Positions 2,228 to 28,593 of a stretch of 34,324 nucleotides of DNA are shown here, in pieces. The number at the start of each line of letters is the position of its first letter. Within the stretch, counting starts at the first letter, position 1. The position numbers and the translations under genes were made by a program. Origin of the DNA: Gammaproteobacteria bacterium (GTDB taxonomy: Bacteria; Pseudomonadota; Gammaproteobacteria; GRL18); contig JALUZF010000083.1 of NCBI GenBank assembly GCA_027012135.1, forward strand, positions 1-34,324. Direction: 5' to 3'. The notes below the pieces were generated by a model. The model was not told the DNA's origin. It searched no databases and saw only the letters and a list, made by a program, of their open reading frames with translations.

Positions 2228-2384
2228 TTTTAAATATCATAGACTTAGGGTGGGTATTAAGCAAGTTATCTTAATTAAATGAGTGTAGATTATTGTACGT
2301 AAATAAGATAGACTTATTTAAGAAACAGCGAACCTCAGGGTGAGAGCATACTTTTAATGATTTTTATTTAGACGCAAATACCGT

Positions 2385-2490
2385 ATCCATTGGCCGTACT
2401 CCTTGCTGAAGACGCCGTGAATCCATCCGTGGAGGCTTTTCGGCAGCATCCATGCTGCCGAAACTTCATCAGGAAGCACAGCCAATGGAT
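2385..2490. repeat. 106-bp palindromic repeat (MITE-like)
   Basis: The outer ends form an imperfect inverted repeat of about 26 bp: ATCCATTGGCCGTACTCC at 2385 against the complement of the segment ending GCCAATGGAT at 2490. The centre has a perfect 11-bp stem (2439-2449 with 2452-2462, TTCGGCAGCAT) separated by only CC. Between them lies a short TCCA...TGGA hairpin (about 2422-2433). It has no coding capacity and sits in a 385-bp gap between divergent accessory genes. The nested palindromes look like a miniature mobile repeat. The rest of the gap (2228-2384 and 2491-2612) holds nothing I recognise. Confidence 0.75.
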
Positions 2491-2612
2491 ATTCAGAAGT
2501 TATAAAATTCAAGTTGAACATATTTTAACCAAAGTATGTCCGGCTCTGCAGCAAACCTAACCTGTGCTAACATTTTAGCGACAATTAATACCAAAAAGGG
2601 TATCATAATATA

Positions 2613-10427: not shown

Positions 10428-11531
10428 ATGTCTGATCGGGTAAAGCAATTAGTCAGAGACGAAATTCAGGCTTTATCGGCCTATCACGTGCCTGAACCGG
10501 GCAATATGATAAAACTCGATGCCATGGAAAATCCTTATCTCTGGCCACAGGAGATGCAGTCGCAATGGCTGGAAGGTCTGAAAAATATTGCTGTCAACCG
10601 TTATCCTGATCCATCAGCTGCCAGCCTGACACGTCGACTTGAACAGGTTATGGATGTGCCTTCAGGCATGCGTTCCATTCTGGGTAATGGCTCCGATGAG
10701 CTGATTCAGATCATCTGTATGGCGCTGGCAAAGCCCGGTGCCGTGGTACTGGCTCCAGAGCCGACCTTTGTTATGTATGACATGATTGCGCGTTTTACCA
10801 ATATGCGTTATCAGTCCGTACCGCTGGACAGCACCTTTCAACTGGATATGCCGGCCATGCTCCAGGCCATTGAAGAATATAATCCGGCAGTCATTTTCCT
10901 GGCTTATCCCAATAATCCTACAGGTAATTTATTTACCGAACAGGATGTCCGTACTATTATTGAAAAATCCAGTGGACTGGTCGTGGTGGATGAAGCCTAT
11001 CACGCCTTTGCCGGACACAGCTTTATGCCCATGTTAAAGGAATACGATAACCTGGTCGTTATGCGTACGGTATCCAAAATGGGCCTGGCCGGCCTGCGCC
11101 TGGGCATACTCAGCGGTTCGGCAGACTGGCTCAATGAATTCGATAAGATCCGCCTGCCCTATAATATTAATGTCCTGACCCAGTACAGCGCCGAATTCGC
11201 TCTGCAGCACAGCGACATTTTAAAACAGCAAACCGATCAAATCTGCCAGGACAGAGAAACAATGCAACAGGCAATGGCTGAAATAGAAGCTATTAAACAA
11301 TACCCCAGCAATGCCAACTTCATCCTGTTCAAAGTTCTAGCCGGAGACTCAGCCCAGCTCTTCGAGTCCCTGAAACAGGACAGAGTCCTGATTAAACGCT
11401 TCCCGGACACCTCGGGTCCGCTGGCAGGGTGCCTAAGGGTAACTATCGGTAAGCCGGAAGAAAATGAGGCGTTTTTAAAAGCTTTAAAGAAAGCGCTGAG
11501 AAAGAGCGTAGCGCTGAGCGTTGAGCGCTGA
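10428..11531 (+). CDS. hisC: HisC, histidinol-phosphate aminotransferase
   Basis: 367-aa PLP-dependent class I/II aminotransferase that turns imidazole-acetol phosphate into histidinol phosphate. Key parts are NPYLWP (35-40), GNGSDELIQ (87-95), AYPNNPTGN (159-167), the VVDEAYHAF Asp that pairs with the PLP ring nitrogen, and K217 in RTVSKMGLAGLRLG as the Schiff-base Lys. Enzymatic sequence ends at about LKALKK. The last 13 or so residues (ALRKSVALSVER) and the stop are encoded by a repeat element that starts here, so the tail is probably an acquired extension. It closes a murA-hisG-hisD-hisC run. Confidence 0.96.
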   Translation: MSDRVKQLVRDEIQALSAYHVPEPGNMIKLDAMENPYLWPQEMQSQWLEGLKNIAVNRYPDPSAASLTRRLEQVMDVPSGMRSILGNGSDELIQIICMALAKPGAVVLAPEPTFVMYDMIARFTNMRYQSVPLDSTFQLDMPAMLQAIEEYNPAVIFLAYPNNPTGNLFTEQDVRTIIEKSSGLVVVDEAYHAFAGHSFMPMLKEYDNLVVMRTVSKMGLAGLRLGILSGSADWLNEFDKIRLPYNINVLTQYSAEFALQHSDILKQQTDQICQDRETMQQAMAEIEAIKQYPSNANFILFKVLAGDSAQLFESLKQDRVLIKRFPDTSGPLAGCLRVTIGKPEENEAFLKALKKALRKSVALSVER

Positions 11532-11675
11532 GAAAGAGCCAGAGCAATATCATTTATCTTAAAATTTGTACCAAATATTTTGATATTTTGCTTGACTGAC
11601 GAAAAAGAGCTTTTAAACTTTTCGCTGAACGCTACGCTCTTTCTCAACGCTCAACGCTCAACGCTCAGCGCTGCT
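11489..11675. repeat. Inverted-end repeat element, copy 1 (between hisC and degS)
   Basis: The arms 11498-11520 and 11623-11645 are complementary at 21 of 23 positions. Further out the ends carry tandem 7-mers (GAGCGTT on the left; CAACGCT three times on the right, 11645-11665). The core shares long stretches with copy 2 at identical spacing: AGAAAGAGCCAGAGCA at 11531 and TTTTGCTTGACTGA ending at 11599 lie exactly as far apart as at 23941 and 24009. The element contains the stop codons of both convergent neighbours, hisC and degS. It codes for no protein of its own. As an RNA it would form a long hairpin in both directions, so it may end transcription for both genes. Outer limits are approximate. 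Confidence 0.85.
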
Positions 11676-12866
11676 CTTCCCCCCCGACATCTGCGGCCGC
11701 TCCTGCGCTACAATCCTGAACTGCATCGACTGGTTTCCGCGAATTCCCTGTAATACCGCAATATCCCCCGGATTAAGGTGAGTGATTAACCGCAGGGCGT
11801 CTTTGGCGGAGGTAATTTTTATACCATTTATATGGGTGATCATATCACCTACCTGGATACCTGCTTTCTGACCAGGGCCGTTTTTCAATACGCCAATGAT
11901 CAGCAGGCCATGATCCACCATGCTGTTGAGTTGTTGTGCCAGCATGGGTGATATTTCTCTGGCTTCAATACCAATCCAGCCCCGGCGAACTTCACCGTAA
12001 CGGATCAACTGCTGCATAACCTCCTGTGCCAGAGTAGCAGGAATGGCAAAACCGATACCCTGAGAACCTCCGTTGTTGCTGATATTAATGGTATTGACAC
12101 CAATCATTTCACCACGGGTATTAACCAGGGCTCCACCGGAATTGCCGGGATTAATGGCTGCATCGGTCTGGATAAAATTGTCAAAGCTGTTGGCTCTGAA
12201 CTGGGAACGGTTCAGGGCACTGATGATCCCGGAAGTAACTGTATTACCCAGGCCGAAAGGATTGCCAATAGCCAGGACAATATCACCTACCTGCAATTTA
12301 GATGAATCCCCGAAATGTATGGTAGGCAGATCCGAAGCGGTCACTTTTAATAGTGCCAGATCGGTTTCCAGGTCACGTCCCACCAGCCGGGCGCGTAAAT
12401 AACGGCCATCCTGCAGTAAAACCTCGATATCTTCAGCACCGGAAATGACATGGTTATTGGTTAATATGTGACCGGAAGGTGAGACGATAACACCTGAACC
12501 CAGATTGGTTTCTTCTTTATAACGTGGTGGCGGGCGTCGGTTTTCAAGCAGGGCTCTTAATGCCGAATTGTTATACAGAGATTCTTTTTGCTTAATCAGT
12601 TTACGGGTAAATATATTAACCACAGCCGGTGCCGCTCTGTGTACTGCCGGTGCAAAACTGACAATGCCATCTGGATATCGATTATTATCTACTGGGGCTG
12701 GTATTGACCTGTCTGGCTGTGGTAATTTAACCGTTTCTGATTTTGATGGCTGTCCTGAATCAGTCAGAAAATAATTATAGCTAATGGCAAATAAAAAACC
12801 TGCCAGTGCCGAGAGCAGGTAAAACAGGCTGGATGAGTAATTTTTAGTTGTTTTTTTACCGGTCAT
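11658..12866 (-). CDS. degS: DegS/AlgW-like periplasmic serine protease with one PDZ domain
   Basis: 402-aa HtrA-family protease anchored in the inner membrane by one TM helix (about residues 12-33). The catalytic triad is H139 (LTNNHVI), D169 (ETDLALLKV) and S243 (NPGNSGGAL). A single PDZ domain covers about 285-375 (RRGWIGIEAREI ... LRLITHLNPGD). This layout fits the DegS/AlgW site-1 protease that cuts the anti-sigma factor RseA/MucA when misfolded porins appear, and its place beside hisC and the bc1 genes matches algW in Pseudomonas. A Pro/Ser/Lys-rich linker (35-65) is of no known role. The last residues (GKSSAER) come from the repeat element, so the natural C-terminus was changed. DegP-type proteins with two PDZ domains are excluded. 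Confidence 0.9.
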   Translation of the reverse strand: MTGKKTTKNYSSSLFYLLSALAGFLFAISYNYFLTDSGQPSKSETVKLPQPDRSIPAPVDNNRYPDGIVSFAPAVHRAAPAVVNIFTRKLIKQKESLYNNSALRALLENRRPPPRYKEETNLGSGVIVSPSGHILTNNHVISGAEDIEVLLQDGRYLRARLVGRDLETDLALLKVTASDLPTIHFGDSSKLQVGDIVLAIGNPFGLGNTVTSGIISALNRSQFRANSFDNFIQTDAAINPGNSGGALVNTRGEMIGVNTINISNNGGSQGIGFAIPATLAQEVMQQLIRYGEVRRGWIGIEAREISPMLAQQLNSMVDHGLLIIGVLKNGPGQKAGIQVGDMITHINGIKITSAKDALRLITHLNPGDIAVLQGIRGNQSMQFRIVAQERPQMSGGKSSAER

Positions 12867-13006: not shown

Positions 13007-13750
13007 ATGGTTAAAAGTAAAGAACTGGTTGCTTATTGTAATGAACTTCTTGAAACTGAACGTTTTTCTGATTATTGTCCCAATGGGCTGCAAATCCAGG
13101 GAAACAATTCAATTCAGCGTATTGTCAGTGGGGTTACTGCCAGCCAGGAACTGATTGATGAAGCCGTTAAACTGGAGGCTGACTGTCTGCTGGTGCATCA
13201 TGGCTTTTTCTGGAAAGGTGAAGCTCCGGTTCTGACTGGTATTAAATACCGGCGTATTAAATCTCTGCTCTGTCATGATATTAATCTGCTGGCCTATCAT
13301 CTGCCTCTGGATGCCCATAAAACCCTGGGCAATAATGTTCTGCTGGCACAGAAACTGGGTATAAAAACGGAATTTTTCTTCGGTAATAATGACATAGCAC
13401 TACTGGGTACTATTGAGCGCCAGAGTGGCGAAACCTTTGTACGTCACCTGTCTCAGGTACTGGATCGCCAGGCACAGCATATTCCTTCAGAAAGAATGCT
13501 GGAAAAAGTAGCCCTGTGCAGCGGGGCGGCACAGTCCTGGATTGAGCAGGCGGTTGCAGTGGAGGCTGATGCCTTTATCAGTGGTGAAATTTCTGAAAAT
13601 ACCTGGCACCTGGCTCGGGAAAACAATATTCATTACTTTGCTGCCGGGCATCATGCCACCGAGCGCTACGGAGTACAGGCACTGGGAGAACATCTTGCGG
13701 AGCAATTTGATCTGGAACATATATTTGTAGACAAATATAATCCGGTTTAG
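13007..13750 (+). CDS. Nif3-family (YbgI-like) dinuclear metal protein
   Basis: 247-aa protein of the Nif3/YbgI family, once labelled GTP cyclohydrolase I type 2. Metal-binding residues are visible in LLVHHGFFWKG (H64, H65), in LAYHLPLDAHKTLGNN and near the end in AAGHHATERYGV. PNGLQIQG and SGEISENTWHLARE are typical. The family forms hexameric rings with two metal ions per subunit; its cellular reaction is not settled. It sits between degS (divergent) and petA, the usual place in Pseudomonas-like gene orders. The ribosome site before ATG 13007 is poor. Confidence 0.92.
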   Translation: MVKSKELVAYCNELLETERFSDYCPNGLQIQGNNSIQRIVSGVTASQELIDEAVKLEADCLLVHHGFFWKGEAPVLTGIKYRRIKSLLCHDINLLAYHLPLDAHKTLGNNVLLAQKLGIKTEFFFGNNDIALLGTIERQSGETFVRHLSQVLDRQAQHIPSERMLEKVALCSGAAQSWIEQAVAVEADAFISGEISENTWHLARENNIHYFAAGHHATERYGVQALGEHLAEQFDLEHIFVDKYNPV

Positions 13751-14114: not shown

Positions 14115-14723
14115 ATGAGTACAGACGCTGTAAATAATAGCAAACGTCGCTTTCTGGTTGCCTCCACTACGGTGGTAGGTGCCATTGGTGCCGGTTTTGT
14201 AGCTGTACCCTTCATCAAATCCTGGAAACCCAGCGCTAAGGCTTTAGCGGCTGGTGCTCCAGTGCAGGTTGACATCAGCAAAATTGAAGAAGGGCAAATG
14301 ATCGTAGTAGAGTGGCGAGGTAAGCCGGTTTACGTTTTAAACAGAACAGACGAGAATATCAAGGTACTGGAAACAGATACTGAGAAACTTGCTGATCCGG
14401 ATTCCGAAATGTCTACCCAGCCGGACTATTGTAAGAACCCAACCCGTTCTTATGACAGTCACCGTAAAGTTATGGTTATGGAAGGGGTATGTACTCACCT
14501 GGGTTGTGCACCGAAATATGTGCCTGATTTAAATAACCCATTTGCAGGTTCGCTGGGACATGACTGGAAAGGCGGCTATTTCTGCCCCTGCCATGGTTCT
14601 ATTTATGACCTTGCCGGCCGGGTTCGCAAATCCATGCCGGCTCCAAAGAACCTGCCAATCATGCCATATTATTTCAAGAGCGATACAGTGATCCTGATAG
14701 GTCAAGACGGGAGTAATGCATAA
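14115..14723 (+). CDS. petA: PetA, Rieske iron-sulfur subunit of the bc1 complex
   Basis: 202-aa Rieske protein that takes electrons from quinol at the Qo site and passes them to cytochrome c1. Cluster ligands are C126 and H128 in VCTHLGC and C157 and H160 in FCPCHGS; C131 and C159 form the disulfide. Residues 10-33 hold a KRRFL segment and a hydrophobic helix that acts as an uncleaved Tat-type anchor. I chose ATG 14115 with GGGAG 8 nt upstream; a TTG at 14100 is in frame but lacks a site. The stop overlaps the petB ATG by one base. Confidence 0.97.
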   Translation: MSTDAVNNSKRRFLVASTTVVGAIGAGFVAVPFIKSWKPSAKALAAGAPVQVDISKIEEGQMIVVEWRGKPVYVLNRTDENIKVLETDTEKLADPDSEMSTQPDYCKNPTRSYDSHRKVMVMEGVCTHLGCAPKYVPDLNNPFAGSLGHDWKGGYFCPCHGSIYDLAGRVRKSMPAPKNLPIMPYYFKSDTVILIGQDGSNA

Positions 14724-21074: not shown

Positions 21075-22976
21075 TTATTCTGCATTAAGCAGCATAACAT
21101 TGCCCTGCTCAAAGGTGGCCCATGGCATACTGCGGATAATATGACCGCTGTTATTAATCGTCAGCTGGCCGGTATCACCGGGATAGGATTCAGCAGGGTT
21201 CGTTTGAAGATATTTAACCATGGGGGCTATCTGATAACTGTCTGCGCCCATGGCAAACAGACGCTTATACAATGTGTTAGGATAATTGCTGCTCTGCAGG
21301 CTGACGGCATTCTGTCTGACACCCAGTAAGAAGGGCATATCAGAAAACAGCACGCCATCCATATCAATGTTCTGTTTAGGTCTGTGGTAACTACTGACGA
21401 TATGGGCTGTGGAATAAACCGGAATGGTTTCGCCATGATGATATATTATCTGCAACGGGATCTGTTTGGCCTGTCTGGGAAAAGCTGCCATAAACAGCAT
21501 GTCAATGTCCTGCCGGCGCCGGGGCGTAAACTCTACTTTCCGGCCAATAGTACGGCTGACCTGTTTCTTGCGGGCTTCACTCTGGTCAATATTGAGCAGG
21601 CTTTTAATGGTGGCGGAAAAATCATAGGCCTGAGGATCATAGGCTGCTGAATCCACCACAATACCGCCGGAATTTTCCCATTGCTGTTTAAATGCAGACT
21701 GCATCCGTTTACCCCAGTGACTGTCAGGAGCAATAATGGCTGCGTAGTAGTGGCCATCCAGTCGGCCTTTTCTGGCCACCTGACGGGCTTCTGATTCAGG
21801 TGACAGACCAAACTGATAAAGGTTCCTAACCCCTTGCAGGTTAGTCTCAGAAGTATTTTCCAGACTGTTCAGTGCCAGAGTCGGGATGTTTAGTTCAGGG
21901 GCTTCAGCCAGCACTTCCAGGTTGCTTTTGGCCAGTGGGCCGATAATAAAGTCAGCACCGTTATTAATTGCTTCCTGGTAGGTCAGCCAGATATGGTCGG
22001 TACTGGTATCATAAAACTGTATTTGCAGGCTATGGTTTAAGGGGGACTGATAGTGAGAAGCCAGAATACCGTCCCGGATAGCCTGGGCCGGCCTGGCCAG
22101 CTTACCCTGTAAGGGCAGTAAAACCGCAATTTGCTGAATATTAAGCAGTGAGTTTTGCCGGGTCTGCAAAATATGCTGGATAAATGTCCTGTCAGCCGGA
22201 TGTCCGGAATAATTCTGCAGCCAGAAGTTAATACCATGATTCAGAGTGTCAGGATCACGGGAGTCATGAAAAATACGAGCCAGTTCCAGCCAGCCGTTAA
22301 AAATCCGTTCATTATCGCTTAACTTGTCAGAGGTTTCGATTTGATAACTGACCAGGCTGTTGGCATAGCTCCAGGTCAGGTTCAGATTGTCCAGTTTCTG
22401 TTGTTGTGAATTCAGGTACTGCTGACGAATAATCAGCTCTTTAATGGCATCGGTTTTCTGTCCCAGTTGAAACAGAGCCATGGCTTTGAGTTTGTGCAGG
22501 GTCTGCAGCTGCTCTGGCCGGGTAAAATTAACGGTATTTAATAATTCCAGGGTTCTTCTGGCCTGGTATTCTTTCAGGCTGACGGCAGCCTGGGTTAACA
22601 GGTAGATATTGTTCTGCTCGGTGGTTAGTACCGCTTTTTCCAGCTGAGACATAATTTTGGCTGTCAGCTGCAGAGTATAATCAAGCTGTTGTTCTGTTAA
22701 TTCTGTCGCTGTCAGCACCTGGCTGCAGACCAGCAGGGCATTGGAAAGCTGAGCGTTTTTCTGCGCGGCTGGAGCAGTCATGGAGTTTTCAAAAAGCCGT
22801 TCAGCATGGCTCAGCTTTTGGGGAATACTCATTTGAGCAATAGTGCGGCTGTCCAGTGGCTGAGCCTGAGCTGGATGCCACCTCGGCTTCTTAACAGGAT
22901 GGCTGCCGCCACAGCCGCTCAGGCCAAGAATAATTATCACAACGGCGAAGGAAATAAATTGGTATAATCTGGACAT
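21075..22976 (-). CDS. lpoA: LpoA, outer-membrane lipoprotein activator of PBP1a
   Basis: 633-aa lipoprotein that reaches from the outer membrane to PBP1a and stimulates peptidoglycan synthesis. The lipobox is LSGC with C22. The N-terminal part (about 50-280) is rich in TPR-like helices. The C-terminal part (about 285-630) has a periplasmic-binding-protein fold starting QQIAVLLPLQGKLARPAQAIRDGILASHY, with GADFIIGPLAKSNLEVLAE and GVLFSDMPFLLG. It is the first gene of the minus-strand group lpoA-yraN-diaA-dolP-FAD oxidase and is divergent from rsmI. Confidence 0.94.
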   Translation of the reverse strand: MSRLYQFISFAVVIIILGLSGCGGSHPVKKPRWHPAQAQPLDSRTIAQMSIPQKLSHAERLFENSMTAPAAQKNAQLSNALLVCSQVLTATELTEQQLDYTLQLTAKIMSQLEKAVLTTEQNNIYLLTQAAVSLKEYQARRTLELLNTVNFTRPEQLQTLHKLKAMALFQLGQKTDAIKELIIRQQYLNSQQQKLDNLNLTWSYANSLVSYQIETSDKLSDNERIFNGWLELARIFHDSRDPDTLNHGINFWLQNYSGHPADRTFIQHILQTRQNSLLNIQQIAVLLPLQGKLARPAQAIRDGILASHYQSPLNHSLQIQFYDTSTDHIWLTYQEAINNGADFIIGPLAKSNLEVLAEAPELNIPTLALNSLENTSETNLQGVRNLYQFGLSPESEARQVARKGRLDGHYYAAIIAPDSHWGKRMQSAFKQQWENSGGIVVDSAAYDPQAYDFSATIKSLLNIDQSEARKKQVSRTIGRKVEFTPRRRQDIDMLFMAAFPRQAKQIPLQIIYHHGETIPVYSTAHIVSSYHRPKQNIDMDGVLFSDMPFLLGVRQNAVSLQSSNYPNTLYKRLFAMGADSYQIAPMVKYLQTNPAESYPGDTGQLTINNSGHIIRSMPWATFEQGNVMLLNAE

Positions 22977-23009: not shown

Positions 23010-23081
23010 ATGACAGAAACAGACTCTTATCTGGTTGATGACTCTTATTTCGTTAAGGACTCTCGTTTTGCTGATAAATAA
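23010..23081 (+). CDS. Possible 23-aa upstream peptide made of three hexapeptide repeats
   Basis: ATG 23010 with AGG 8 nt upstream opens a short frame that ends at TAA 23079-23081, overlapping the probable rsmI start. It encodes the repeats DSYLVD, DSYFVK and DSRFAD after MTET. It could be a translated leader or a chance frame within a tandem repeat. There is no homology I recognise. Confidence 0.3.
   Translation: MTETDSYLVDDSYFVKDSRFADK
23022..23075 (+). repeat. Three imperfect 18-bp tandem repeats before rsmI
   Basis: Units begin at 23022, 23040 and 23058, each starting GACTCT. The first two share GACTCTTAT, and units 1 and 3 both end TGAT. They cover the region in which rsmI translation starts, so repeat number would change the N-terminus or leader. 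Confidence 0.75.
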
Positions 23082-23934
23082 TACTGAGAGCCGGAAATAT
23101 TCGGGTCGATTATATATTGTTGCCACACCGATTGGAAACCTCCAGGACTTCTCACCCAGAGCAATTTCGACCCTGCAGCAGGTTGACCTGATCGCTGCTG
23201 AAGATACCCGCCACAGCGGTTATCTGTTAAAACAGCACGATATTAACACGCATTGTATAGCATTGCATGAACATAATGAACGCCAGTCCGCTGAAAAGGT
23301 GATCCAGTCTGTAAAAGCGGGTAAAAACATTGCCCTGATCTCCGATGCCGGTACTCCGCTGGTGAGTGATCCGGGCTATCACCTGGTAAAACTGGCCCAT
23401 GAAGCAGGCATTCAGGTCACCCCAGTGCCCGGCCCTTCGGCGATGATTACCGCTCTGTCTGCGGCGGGCCTGCCGACCGACCGGTTCTGTTTCGAGGGTT
23501 TTGTTCCCTCTAAAAGCGGTGCCAGAAAAAGCTTTTACCAGAATTATCAGAATGAAACCCGAACTATGGTGTTTTATGAAACCCCGCATCGTATAGTGGA
23601 TTCCCTTGCGGATCTATGTGAGGCCTTAAGCCCCGATCGAGTGGTAGTACTGGCCAGAGAGCTAACCAAAACCTTTGAAACCATACGCAATGACAGCGCA
23701 GAAAACCTGCTGACCTGGGTTAAAGCCGACCCCAACCAGCAAAAAGGTGAAATCGTCCTGGTAGTCCAGGGCTGCAGCAAACCCCAGATAACAGAAATCA
23801 GCCCGGAAACCGAACGAATTCTGCGTTTACTGATGGCAGAGCTGTCGTTGAAGCAGGCGGTGAAGTTGACGGTGGAGATTACGGGGGAGAGGAAGAAAGG
23901 GGTTTATAGAGCAGCGTTGAGCGTTCAGCGCTGA
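23068..23934 (+). CDS. rsmI: RsmI, 16S rRNA 2'-O-methyltransferase (C1402)
   Basis: 288-aa SAM-dependent methyltransferase that 2'-O-methylates C1402 in the ribosomal decoding centre. Family landmarks are LYIVATPIGNLQDFSPRA, IAAEDTRHSGYLLK, ISDAGTPLVSDPGYHLV, VPGPSAMITALSAAGLPTDRFCFEGF and FYETPHRI. The start is uncertain: TTG 23068 has AAGGA 8 nt upstream and gives a normal length; ATG 23038 and TTG 23035 are also in frame. Its last residues (RAALSVQR) and stop lie in the second copy of the repeat element, and ALSV(E/Q)R is shared with the tail of HisC. In many relatives the division gene cluster follows it; here it does not. Confidence 0.94.
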   Translation: MLINNTESRKYSGRLYIVATPIGNLQDFSPRAISTLQQVDLIAAEDTRHSGYLLKQHDINTHCIALHEHNERQSAEKVIQSVKAGKNIALISDAGTPLVSDPGYHLVKLAHEAGIQVTPVPGPSAMITALSAAGLPTDRFCFEGFVPSKSGARKSFYQNYQNETRTMVFYETPHRIVDSLADLCEALSPDRVVVLARELTKTFETIRNDSAENLLTWVKADPNQQKGEIVLVVQGCSKPQITEISPETERILRLLMAELSLKQAVKLTVEITGERKKGVYRAALSVQR

Positions 23935-24053
23935 GCGTTCAGAAAGAGCCAGAGCAAAAGGATTTATCCTCAAGTAAATGCAAAATATTTTAATGTTTTG
24001 CTTGACTGAAGAAAGATGGGGATTATACTTTTACGCTCAACGCTGGCTCTTCT
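23908..24053. repeat. Inverted-end repeat element, copy 2 (between rsmI and dciA)
   Basis: The left end AGAGCAGCGTTGAGCGTT is nearly repeated in inverse at the right end (complement of the segment ending at about 24052, with one base inserted). The core matches copy 1: AGAAAGAGCCAGAGCA at 23941 and TTTTGCTTGACTGA ending at 24009 have the same distance as in copy 1, and AAATATTTTxATxTTTTGC is shared. The central part is AT-rich and more diverged. The stops of rsmI (23932-23934) and dciA (24037-24039) both fall inside. It codes for nothing itself. Confidence 0.85.
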
Positions 24054-24474
24054 CCCCTACATGCCTGGATAACCGCATCAACGTCTCCCTCAACCCCTCA
24101 TCTTCAATATGTTCCGCCGAATCAGCTATTACATTGGCTGCATTTTGTGAATAAATCAGCGTATTTTTTTTGTTTTTTGTGTTAACATTAGAAAACGCTA
24201 CTTTAATATTTATTTTCTTTAACTGATTGAATTGAGGATCGTTTTGTAAAGCCCGCTTTAATCTGGGGGTGTAAAAACGCAGTTTACTGGCCCAGGCCGG
24301 GCTGTTACAGGCCAGTTTTAGTTGTTGTTTGTTTTTAAAAGCAACCACTGAAACCTGTTCAGCAAACTCTTCAGGTAGATAGCTCTGTAAGCGACGAGTT
24401 AAGTAATCCAGGTAGCGGCTGTGTTGCAGTAGACGATCAATGCTGGCATCAGGTTGTTGCAGAATTTTTTTCAT
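24037..24474 (-). CDS. dciA: DciA, replicative helicase loader (DUF721)
   Basis: 145-aa protein of the DUF721/DciA family, which helps load the DnaB helicase in bacteria without DnaC. The KH-like N-terminal domain covers about residues 12-100 (LQHSRYLDYLTRRLQSYLPEEFAEQVSVVAF ... LACNSPAWASKLRFYTPRLKRAL); the SPAWASKLRF segment is the most typical part. ATG 24472-24474 (MKKILQQP) is chosen; the frame stays open further upstream, but that part is hydrophobic and unlike the family. The final residues GEKSQR come from the repeat element. It is divergent from the M23 peptidase gene and, unlike its usual context, has no lpxC beside it. Confidence 0.88.
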   Translation of the reverse strand: MKKILQQPDASIDRLLQHSRYLDYLTRRLQSYLPEEFAEQVSVVAFKNKQQLKLACNSPAWASKLRFYTPRLKRALQNDPQFNQLKKINIKVAFSNVNTKNKKNTLIYSQNAANVIADSAEHIEDEGLRETLMRLSRHVGEKSQR

Positions 24475-24619: not shown

Positions 24620-25594
24620 ATGAATATTATACTAATAAGAAAAAAAACCGGGGCAGCGCTGGATGTTAATATCTCGCGTTCGTTTGTTATCATTGTTTCC
24701 CTTATTATGCTGAGTATTCCAGTACTGAGTTATTATCTTGGTGTTATTTCTAATGATAAACCGCCAACTCTGGCTGATTTAAATAAACCGGAATTTATTG
24801 ATCCGGTGCGTAGCAAGCTGAATAACATTATCGGCAGTGTCTACAAGGAAGAACTGCAGAAACAACAGGAAGAACTGGATGCTCTGAAACAGCATAATCA
24901 GGAAAATATTAATGCCCTAACCAATACTCTGGCTAATTTACAGGCGCATATTATTCGCCTGGATACTCTGGGTACTCGTTTAACTGATGTCGCTAAACTG
25001 GATAAAAAGGCTTTTAATTTTGATTTTGAACCTGCTGTGGGTGGTCCGGTAGAACCGGGTGAAGTTATTCAGGATATCCGTTACCGGGATTTTGTTAAAC
25101 GACTGGACAAGATATCAAAGGATATTGATAACCGTAGCAGGCAACTGGATATACTGGAAAAAATTCTGATATCAGAACATTTTCAGAGTGTTACTACACC
25201 CACAGGTAAACCGGTAACCGAGGGCCGTATATCCTCTTATTATGGTATAAGAAAAGACCCGTTTACGGGTAAAAAGAAAATGCACAAAGGTATGGATGTA
25301 GCTTCAAAACTCGGTGCGCCGGTTATCGCAACCGCAGACGGTATTGTGACAAAAGTGGAAAAGAAACCTGGTTATGGAAAAATGCTGGAAATCGACCACG
25401 GGTACGGTATTTCTACCCGTTACGGGCATAACAAAAGTGTGTCAGTTAAAGTGGGTGATATAGTCAAACAGGGACAGGTAATTGCCTCTATGGGTTCAAC
25501 GGGACGCTCTACGGGGCCCCATGTTCACTACGAGGTTTTGCGTAATGGTAAGCAGGTAAACCCCCGTAAATATATTGTAACAGCAAAACGTTAA
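24620..25594 (+). CDS. M23-family peptidoglycan peptidase/LytM protein, membrane-anchored
   Basis: 324-aa protein with one TM helix (about 20-42), a coiled-coil region (about 72-185, e.g. VYKEELQKQQEELDALKQHNQ) and a C-terminal M23 domain (about 205-318). The zinc residues of active enzymes are present: H222 and D226 (HKGMD) and H301 and H303 (PHVHYEV). It is therefore a likely active endopeptidase rather than a degenerate activator like EnvC. It lies before secA, as in Pseudomonas. No ribosome site is clear before ATG 24620, but the MNIILIRKK start is family-like. Confidence 0.92.
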   Translation: MNIILIRKKTGAALDVNISRSFVIIVSLIMLSIPVLSYYLGVISNDKPPTLADLNKPEFIDPVRSKLNNIIGSVYKEELQKQQEELDALKQHNQENINALTNTLANLQAHIIRLDTLGTRLTDVAKLDKKAFNFDFEPAVGGPVEPGEVIQDIRYRDFVKRLDKISKDIDNRSRQLDILEKILISEHFQSVTTPTGKPVTEGRISSYYGIRKDPFTGKKKMHKGMDVASKLGAPVIATADGIVTKVEKKPGYGKMLEIDHGYGISTRYGHNKSVSVKVGDIVKQGQVIASMGSTGRSTGPHVHYEVLRNGKQVNPRKYIVTAKR

Positions 25595-25860: not shown

Positions 25861-28593
25861 ATGGTCGCAAAAATATTCAGAAAACTTTTCGGTAGCCGCA
25901 ATGACCGGGAAATAAAACGTTATTCTAAAATCGTTGATAAAATCAATGCACTGGAAGAGGGAATACAGAGTCTCAGTGATGAACAGCTGCAGGCTAAGAC
26001 GGATGAATTTCGTCAGCAGCTCAAAGATGGTAAAGCACTGGACGATCTACTGCCCGAAGCCTTTGCTGTAGTACGCGAAGCCAGTCGCCGGGTAATGGGT
26101 ATGCGGCATTTTGATGTTCAGCTTATCGGCGGTATGGTATTGCATGAAGGTCGAATTGCCGAAATGCGTACCGGTGAAGGTAAAACCCTGATGGCCACCC
26201 TGGCAGTATATCTTAATGCCTTAAGCGGTGACGGTGTGCATGTGGTCACGGTTAATGATTACCTGGCAGAACGTGACTCCAAATGGATGGGTAAACTGTA
26301 CAATTTTCTGGGCATGTCAGTAGGCGTTATCCTGTCCGGTCAGGATAATGAACAGAAACGCGAGGCCTATGCCTGTGATATTACCTACGGCACCAATAAT
26401 GAATTCGGCTTTGATTATCTGCGCGATAATATGGCTTTTTCCATTGATGAAAAAGTACAGCGTAAACTCAATTTTGCCATTGTCGATGAAGTAGACTCTA
26501 TTTTAATTGATGAAGCCAGAACTCCGTTAATTATTTCCGGCCCGGCTGAAGACAATTCCGAAGTCTATCAGCGTGTGAACAAGCTGATCCCCAAACTGGA
26601 AAAACAGGAAGTGGTTGAATCCCTGGACGAACAGGAAGAACCGCCGGGGGATTATAGTGTTAATGAAAAAGACAAGCAGGTATTGCTGTCCAATGCCGGT
26701 CATCAGAAAGTTGAAGAACTGCTGGTGGAAGAAGGCCTGCTGAACGAAAATGAAAGTCTGTATGACCCGGCTAATATTATGCTCATGCATCATGTTAACG
26801 CAGCCCTGCGGGCACACAGTCTGTTTACCAAAAACGTGGACTATATTGTCAGCAATGGCGAAGTGGTTATTGTGGATGAGTTTACCGGCCGTACCATGCC
26901 TGGTCGACGCTGGTCTGACGGTCTGCATCAGGCAGTGGAAGCCAAGGAAGGAGTCCCTGTTCAGGTTGAGAACCAGACTCTGGCATCCATTACCTTCCAG
27001 AATCTGTTCCGTTTATACAATAAGCTGTCCGGTATGACCGGTACGGCTGATACTGAAGCCTTTGAATTCCATGAGATTTATGGTCTGGAAGTTATTGTGA
27101 TTCCGACCAATAAACCCATGCAGCGTATTGATCATGGCGATCTGGTCTATCTGACCCAGGATGAAAAGTTTGATGCCATTATTGAAGATATTAAGGATTG
27201 TCAGTCCCGGGGCCAGCCGGTTCTGGTGGGTACAGCTTCTATTGAAGTATCTGAATTATTATCCAATGCCCTGAATAAGGCAGGCATTCAGCACGAGGTG
27301 CTCAATGCCAAGCAGCATGCCCGTGAAGCCGATATTATTGCTCAGGCCGGTGCGCCGGGGGCGGTTACCATTGCCACCAATATGGCCGGTCGTGGTACCG
27401 ATATTGTGCTGGGTGGTAATGTTGAGGCAGAAATCGCCAAGCTGGATGATCCCGATGAGGCGACTATCGCTAAAATGCGTGAAGAGTGGCAGAAACGCCA
27501 TGAGCAGGTACTGGCCAGCGGCGGTCTGCATATTATTGGTACTGAACGGCATGAATCGCGCCGTATTGATAACCAGTTAAGAGGTCGTTCCGGCCGTCAG
27601 GGGGATGCGGGTTCGTCACGTTTCTATCTGTCGCTGGATGACTCGCTGATGCGTATTTTTGCCTCCGATAAAATGGCCGGCTTAATGCGTAAACTGGGTA
27701 TGGAAAAAGGTGAAGCTATTGAACATAAATGGGTCAGTCGTTCCATTGAAAATGCCCAGCGTAAAGTGGAAGGCCATAACTTTGATATTCGTAAGCAATT
27801 GCTGGAATACGATGATGTCGCCAATGACCAGCGTAAGGTAATTTACGAGCAGCGTAATGAGTTAATGGCCACAGAAGATGTGTCTGATCTGATTGTGGAA
27901 ATCCGCAGGGATGTAATTAACCAGTTTATTGATCAGTATATACCACCGGAGAGTATTGAAGAACAATGGGATATTCCCGGCCTGGAAGAAGGTCTTAAAA
28001 ACGAATTTGCTCTGGAATTGCCTATAGCCCAATGGCTGGCAGAAGACGATAACCTGCATGAAGAACCTTTAAGAGAGAAAATTCTGGATGCTCTGGTTAA
28101 GGAATTTAACCAGAAAGAAGAACTGATTGGTTCGGATATGATGCGCCGGGTTGAAAAGGGCGTTATGCTGGAAGTACTTGATACCCTCTGGAAAGAACAT
28201 CTGGCGGCTATGGATTATCTGCGTAAGGGTATTGGTCTGCGTGGTTATGCTCAGAAAAATCCCAAGCAGGAATACAAACGGGAATCCTTTGAACTGTTTA
28301 CCGATCTGCTGGATCGGATCAAACACGATGTTATTGTGCGTTTAAGCATTATCCAGATCCGTGAAGAACCAGATATTGCCGAATTTGAACATCACGAACA
28401 GCCTGAAATGCAGTTCCAGCACGATGAATTTAATACTCTGGAAGGCGAAGAAGAAGTTGCCCAGGAAGTAGCTGAAGAAAAGCCGGCAAGAGCTCAGCCT
28501 TTTGTCCGAGAAGGCCAGAAAATCGGCCGTAACCAGCCCTGTCCCTGTGGTTCCGGTAAAAAGTATAAGCAGTGCTGCGGTAAGGTCAGTTAG
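25861..28593 (+). CDS. secA: SecA, preprotein translocase ATPase
   Basis: 910-aa motor that drives preproteins through SecYEG. Walker A is RTGEGKT (GEGKT at 105-109) and Walker B is [15 protein letters not shown] (DEVD 209-212). [14 protein letters not shown] and [15 protein letters not shown] are the second-motor motifs. The C-terminus has the zinc/SecB-binding motif [13 protein letters not shown] (C894, C896, C905, C906), preceded by an acidic linker of about 50 residues. The start [17 protein letters not shown] agrees with the family. It precedes argJ by 89 bp. Confidence 0.98.

Follow-up and report, generated by a model that had tools for sequence, protein, structure and literature searches.

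A short repeat marks all three seams of a probable relocation of the essential dcw gene block in a marine gammaproteobacterium

Few gene neighbourhoods in bacteria are as strongly conserved as the dcw cluster. In the genome of a marine bacterium (G000), a block running from rnpB through mraZ to lpxC, which includes this cluster, lies between galU and a hypothetical gene, and its ancestral position between rsmI and dciA is occupied by a single copy of a short repeat. All three seams of this arrangement fall inside copies of the repeat, which thus most likely served as the cut-and-join point for the move.

Results

One repeat copy fills the gap between rsmI and dciA

The window that we analysed is the entire contig C83 of G000 (34,324 nucleotides). 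Its convergent rsmI (stop at 23934, + strand) and dciA (stop at 24037, − strand) genes are separated by 102 bp between stops. A single copy of the repeat occupies this gap throughout and reaches into both gene ends, supplying the last ~9 codons (~27 bp) of rsmI and the last few codons (~15 bp) of dciA. The relevant features of the window are as follows.

11510..11677, +: second full-length element copy, between convergent hisC and degS-like genes
21075..22976, −: lppC/lpoA-like gene, conserved left flank (dolP-gmhA-yraN-lppC-rsmI)
23077..23934, +: rsmI (16S rRNA 2'-O-methyltransferase), ancestral left neighbour of rnpB-mraZ
23908..24053, +: repeat element (J1 copy) filling the rsmI-dciA gap; copies stand at the same positions in relatives, after rsmI (G004/G001) and between lpxC and dciA (G001-G004)
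23908..23942, +: left end of the element, AGAGCAGCGTTGAGCG plus degenerate heptads (TGAGCGT/TTCAGCG), overlapping the rsmI 3' end
24002..24029, +: sigma-70-like promoter motif TTGACT-16-TATACT within the element core
24034..24051, +: right end of the element, CGCTCAACGCTGGCTCTT, an inverted repeat of the left end that overlaps the dciA 3' end; an outer stem pairs both ends (fold z = -4.6)
24037..24474, −: dciA (DUF721), ancestral right neighbour of lpxC
24620..25594, +: M23 peptidase gene, conserved right flank
25861..28593, +: secA, conserved right flank

No mraZ, ftsZ or lpxC is present within the window. A sequence-only reading of this DNA had described a dcw cluster absent from its usual slot, with rsmI and dciA about 100 bp apart and the gap made up entirely of repeat element, and each of these points is borne out. 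That reading missed rnpB, which belongs to the displaced block (the ancestral order being rsmI-rnpB-mraZ). The rsmI-dciA copy is probably the scar at the former position of the dcw block, a donor site left empty when the block moved within the chromosome.

In the congener G002, the site equivalent to the hisC/degS-like copy is broken by IS-like sequence. A different dispersed repeat of ~215 bp (window 2335-2560) occurs at several places in G000 and G002 with 79-92% identity (L202, L209, L212, L218, L245 and L250).

The dcw cluster lies intact beside galU

Elsewhere in G000, mraZ was located on contig C219 and lpxC on contig C296. C219 carries galU-rnpB-mraZ-rsmH-...-ftsI-murE and the start of murF, with rnpB (RNase P RNA) identified by Rfam, and C296 carries murF-mraY-murD-ftsW-murG-murC-murB-ddl-ftsQ-ftsA-ftsZ-lpxC-hypothetical-sco-pcuAC. 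The two contigs overlap exactly over 127 bp in murF, which shows that the cluster is intact. Loss of the cluster was rejected. The displaced block from rnpB to lpxC spans ~20.7 kb and runs in the same direction as galU.

A search of G000 with an 801-bp galU/hypothetical reference from G002 matched C219 as far as base 328 and C296 from base 331 onwards and returned no uninterrupted second copy of galU-hypothetical; the block lies precisely between these two genes. One location each was found in G000 for mraZ, lpxC, dciA and rsmI, and neither the old lpxC-dciA junction nor the galU-hypothetical junction is on any G000 contig.

The gene order of the window is derived

Relatives preserve all three adjacencies that are missing from G000. 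rnpB directly follows rsmI in 11 relatives, eight of which show the order rsmI-rnpB-mraZ (G001, G005, G011, G013, G014, G015, G024 and G031), lpxC neighbours dciA in all of the other genomes in which dciA was located (27/27), and galU-hypothetical-sco-pcuAC is present in six relatives from two genera (G002, G003, G008, G009, G013 and G014). The outgroup order is rsmI-rnpB-mraZ...lpxC-dciA, with galU-hypothetical-sco at a separate place. rsmI adjoins dciA in no relative examined, whether the element is present or absent. These adjacencies establish that the order in the window is derived, and the uniform lpxC-dciA adjacency led us to reject an ancestral origin of the rsmI-dciA order. Judged from gene order, a single move of the block from rnpB to lpxC would account for the three old adjacencies lost and the three reciprocal adjacencies gained.

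G002 shows an arrangement of its own. On its contig C194 (L150:14300-17802), rnpB-mraZ adjoins suhB with heptad remnants between them, and lpxC still adjoins dciA; this is a second break between rsmI and rnpB, apparently independent of the move in G000. suhB usually faces secF (G000, G004, G005, G013 and G014). A transposase-like reading frame also lies directly upstream of lpxC in G002 (L151:9460-9926), at the place where ftsZ ends in the other genomes.

Congeners carry the repeat at each end of the donor site and at the target

We refer to the positions after rsmI, after lpxC and after galU as sites A, B and C. G004 and G001, which keep lpxC-dciA, carry the element at site A and again, equally oriented, at site B (rsmI-el(+) and lpxC-el(+)-dciA), and G002 and G003 likewise have a copy between lpxC and dciA. 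Exact identity between the A and B copies extends over 44 bp in G004 and over 28 bp in G001. At site C, G003 has galU-el(+) and G002 has a short form of ~30 bp. Among relatives, the repeat is thus found at both donor ends (A and B in G001/G004) and at the target (C in G003/G002), a distribution which indicates that the element occupied all three sites before the move.

All three seams lie inside the element

Alignment to relatives assigned a parentage to each seam. J1, in the window, is A on its left and B on its right, following A as far as 24024 and B from 23898/24033 on. J2, on C219, is C on its left and A on its right, following C as far as 13122-13124 and A from 13114 on, inside AGAGCAGCGCTGAACGC. 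J3, on C296, is B on its left and C on its right, following B up to 14528-14531 and C from 14524, inside AGAGCAGCGCTGCTC, and has a small C-rich insertion. Every seam is inside the element, and the flanking sequence is kept on all six sides. We infer recombination from these seams, and with it the participating enzymes and an intermediate that would have been either an excised circle or a transient second copy. The earlier proposal that recombination between element copies could have moved the cluster is supported. Neither of the two observations named as refuting it was made: rsmI stands beside dciA in none of the relatives examined, and the relocated block, now beside galU, has element sequence at both ends.

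At J2 and J3, the switch between parents is confined to about 11 bp, within element remnants of 17-18 bp; the element is longer at the orthologous positions in congeners that keep lpxC-dciA. The A or B copy of G004 and the short C copy of G002 share only 11 bp of exact identity. The J2 and J3 remnants are shorter than a clean crossover of long identical arrays predicts, suggesting that short-homology joining or a later loss of heptads is needed. The core of the J1 copy is 80.7% identical to A and 84.1% identical to B of G004; assignment of this copy to A or B by core identity was dropped, as an unrelated G002 copy scores higher (87.5%).

G000 is a 3.9-Mb draft of 325 contigs with 4.59% contamination and signs of strain mixture, and one genome per species was compared. 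Contigs C296 and C145 share a 617-bp overlap (L073:15896-16513 and L260:1-617) with 96% identity and identical ends, which represents strain variation within the assembled genome. An assembly in which contigs were misjoined through the repeat, the true order being ancestral, might be suspected from the draft state with its strain variation, from the position of J1 inside a ~145-bp repeat with 55 sites in the fetched sequence of G000 and G000-derived loci, and from contigs of relatives that end in the element (G004 at site A; C121, C185 and C352 of G002). The three non-ancestral seams are nevertheless mutually reciprocal, the closest other G000 copy to the J1 element is only 87% identical, the ancestral lpxC-dciA and galU-hypothetical junctions are both missing from all contigs, and the 17-18 bp of element at J2 and J3 are too short for typical assembly repeat collapse. 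Such lengths are below the word lengths that assemblers usually use. With three mutually consistent seams, two of which lack a long repeat, an artefact is unlikely.

It is also very unlikely that an insertion sequence moved the block, by IS-mediated or composite transposition, with the small repeat as a bystander. MITEs are known as IS targets (PMC10969869), and G002 has IS-like insertions in some element copies and upstream of lpxC, but an IS or transposase reading frame is seen at none of the three G000 seams, all six flanks are unbroken as far as the element and the donor site keeps a full element, which is unexpected after cut-and-paste of the block.

The element resembles a MITE

BLAST (E<=1e-3) found 69 element matches in G000 and 70 in G002. 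The matches in G000, with 55 sites in the fetched part, show that the repeat is not due to chance. The element is short (~145 bp, below 500 bp), multicopy and non-coding, with one of 45 scored sites inside an ORF, and it has terminal inverted repeats (AGAGCAGCGTTGAGCG / CGCTCAACGCTGGCTCT), features in which it resembles MITEs. The inverted ends, AGAGCAGCG(T/C)TGA, are built of degenerate 7-bp units that expand to arrays of up to 17 copies and enclose a core of ~90 bp. A sigma-70-like motif, TTGAC-(15-16)-TANANT, is present in 15/23 core copies, and a strong RNA hairpin is predicted (z = -4.6). In a target-site check, rsmI of G005, where the element is absent, already carries AGAGCAGCGTT as coding sequence, and no close empty site was found.

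Element sites with close flanking reading frames in G000 (n=34) comprise 13 convergent, 21 co-directional and 0 divergent pairs, against 43 convergent, 173 co-directional and 33 divergent neighbouring gene pairs in the same loci; the element thus favours gene 3' ends. The heptad unit varies, with (TCGACTA)5 after rsmI in G005 (L155:9960-10005), TTAAGTG-type units at both G003 sites (L153:7197-7355 and L154:2660-2765) and TGAACGC heptads in G002/G004. Such differences between species and sites suggest turnover or conversion among arrays.

In a partial comparison of G000 and G002 (135 kb matched), interior breaks occur both at elements and away from them (for example, at window 31459 and C219:11218); several G002 breaks involve IS-like insertions, and no measured enrichment of breaks at elements is claimed.

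Discussion

We consider it probable that the rnpB-lpxC block relocated through recombination between the A, B and C copies of the element. The ancestor would have carried a copy at each of the three sites, all oriented alike with respect to the gene upstream. Recombination between the direct copies A and B would have freed the ~20.7-kb rnpB-mraZ...lpxC block, or resolved a duplication of it, leaving one A/B hybrid element between rsmI and dciA. The freed or duplicated block would then have paired with copy C and been inserted, in the observed orientation, between galU and its former follower, and short-homology joining or later loss of heptads may explain the short remnants at J2 and J3. A temporary second copy would be the safer route because dcw genes are essential; the data are compatible with either route. 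Successive inversions between element copies, whose ends are palindromic, could in principle have transferred the block to galU without any free intermediate, since inverted ends let any two copies pair in either orientation and the separate G002 break that places rnpB beside suhB is compatible with inversion, but an orientation-preserving move needs about three inversions that re-use the same sites, making this course, less economical than A x B plus C, very unlikely.

Several known repeat systems offer parallels to the G000 element and its proposed role. QMITE2 of Coxiella flanks icm/dot, mainly at gene 3' ends, and Acinetobacter MITEs flank integrons; such MITEs are described as hotspots for homologous recombination, and the flanked gene block is thought to have moved (PMC10969869). 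The G000 element is similarly a short non-coding repeat with inverted ends that flanks a probably moved block. In G000, however, the essential dcw cluster forms the cargo, the seams show no IS, and relatives allow a comparison of the donor, target and derived sites alike. BrickBuilt, a MITE of Porphyromonas gingivalis, contains a tandem-repeat array (PMC4596501) and, according to a review, a sigma-70-like promoter (PMC10969869). The G000 element shares this MITE-like architecture of tandem array and sigma-70-like motif, on which the likeness is based, but it has another host and a 7-bp unit, and its heptads form the inverted ends. Neisseria Correia elements, compared by architecture only, are also short repeats with inverted ends and internal sigma-70-like promoters; they lie upstream of genes, whereas the G000 element lies at gene 3' ends. 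Finally, the TAACTGA heptamer repeats of marine Beggiatoaceae are intergenic and tandem, and a role in genome rearrangement has been considered for them (PMC4679880). The G000 element likewise contains intergenic tandem heptamers in marine Gammaproteobacteria, but its heptamer is a different one that varies by copy and species, and a ~90-bp core lies between inverted heptad arrays.

Repeat-mediated rearrangement is already known, and the G000 case is a clean essential-gene example of it, from a draft assembly. Within a limited open-access literature, titles and abstracts yielded no described relocation of dcw by repeats. The whole move can be resolved almost to the base, sister species having preserved its donor, target and derived sites, and it provides a testable case of a free circle versus a temporary duplication. 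A more speculative idea, which we put forward tentatively, is that this family of elements actively rearranges genomes in the genus: its heptad-ended copies, lying at gene 3' ends, would break gene order at operon borders time and again and allow even essential clusters to move as intact cassettes. If so, the G002 break at site A would represent a second such event. The G000 case itself shows how short repeats located at the 3' ends of genes could allow an essential block to relocate with its operon unbroken.
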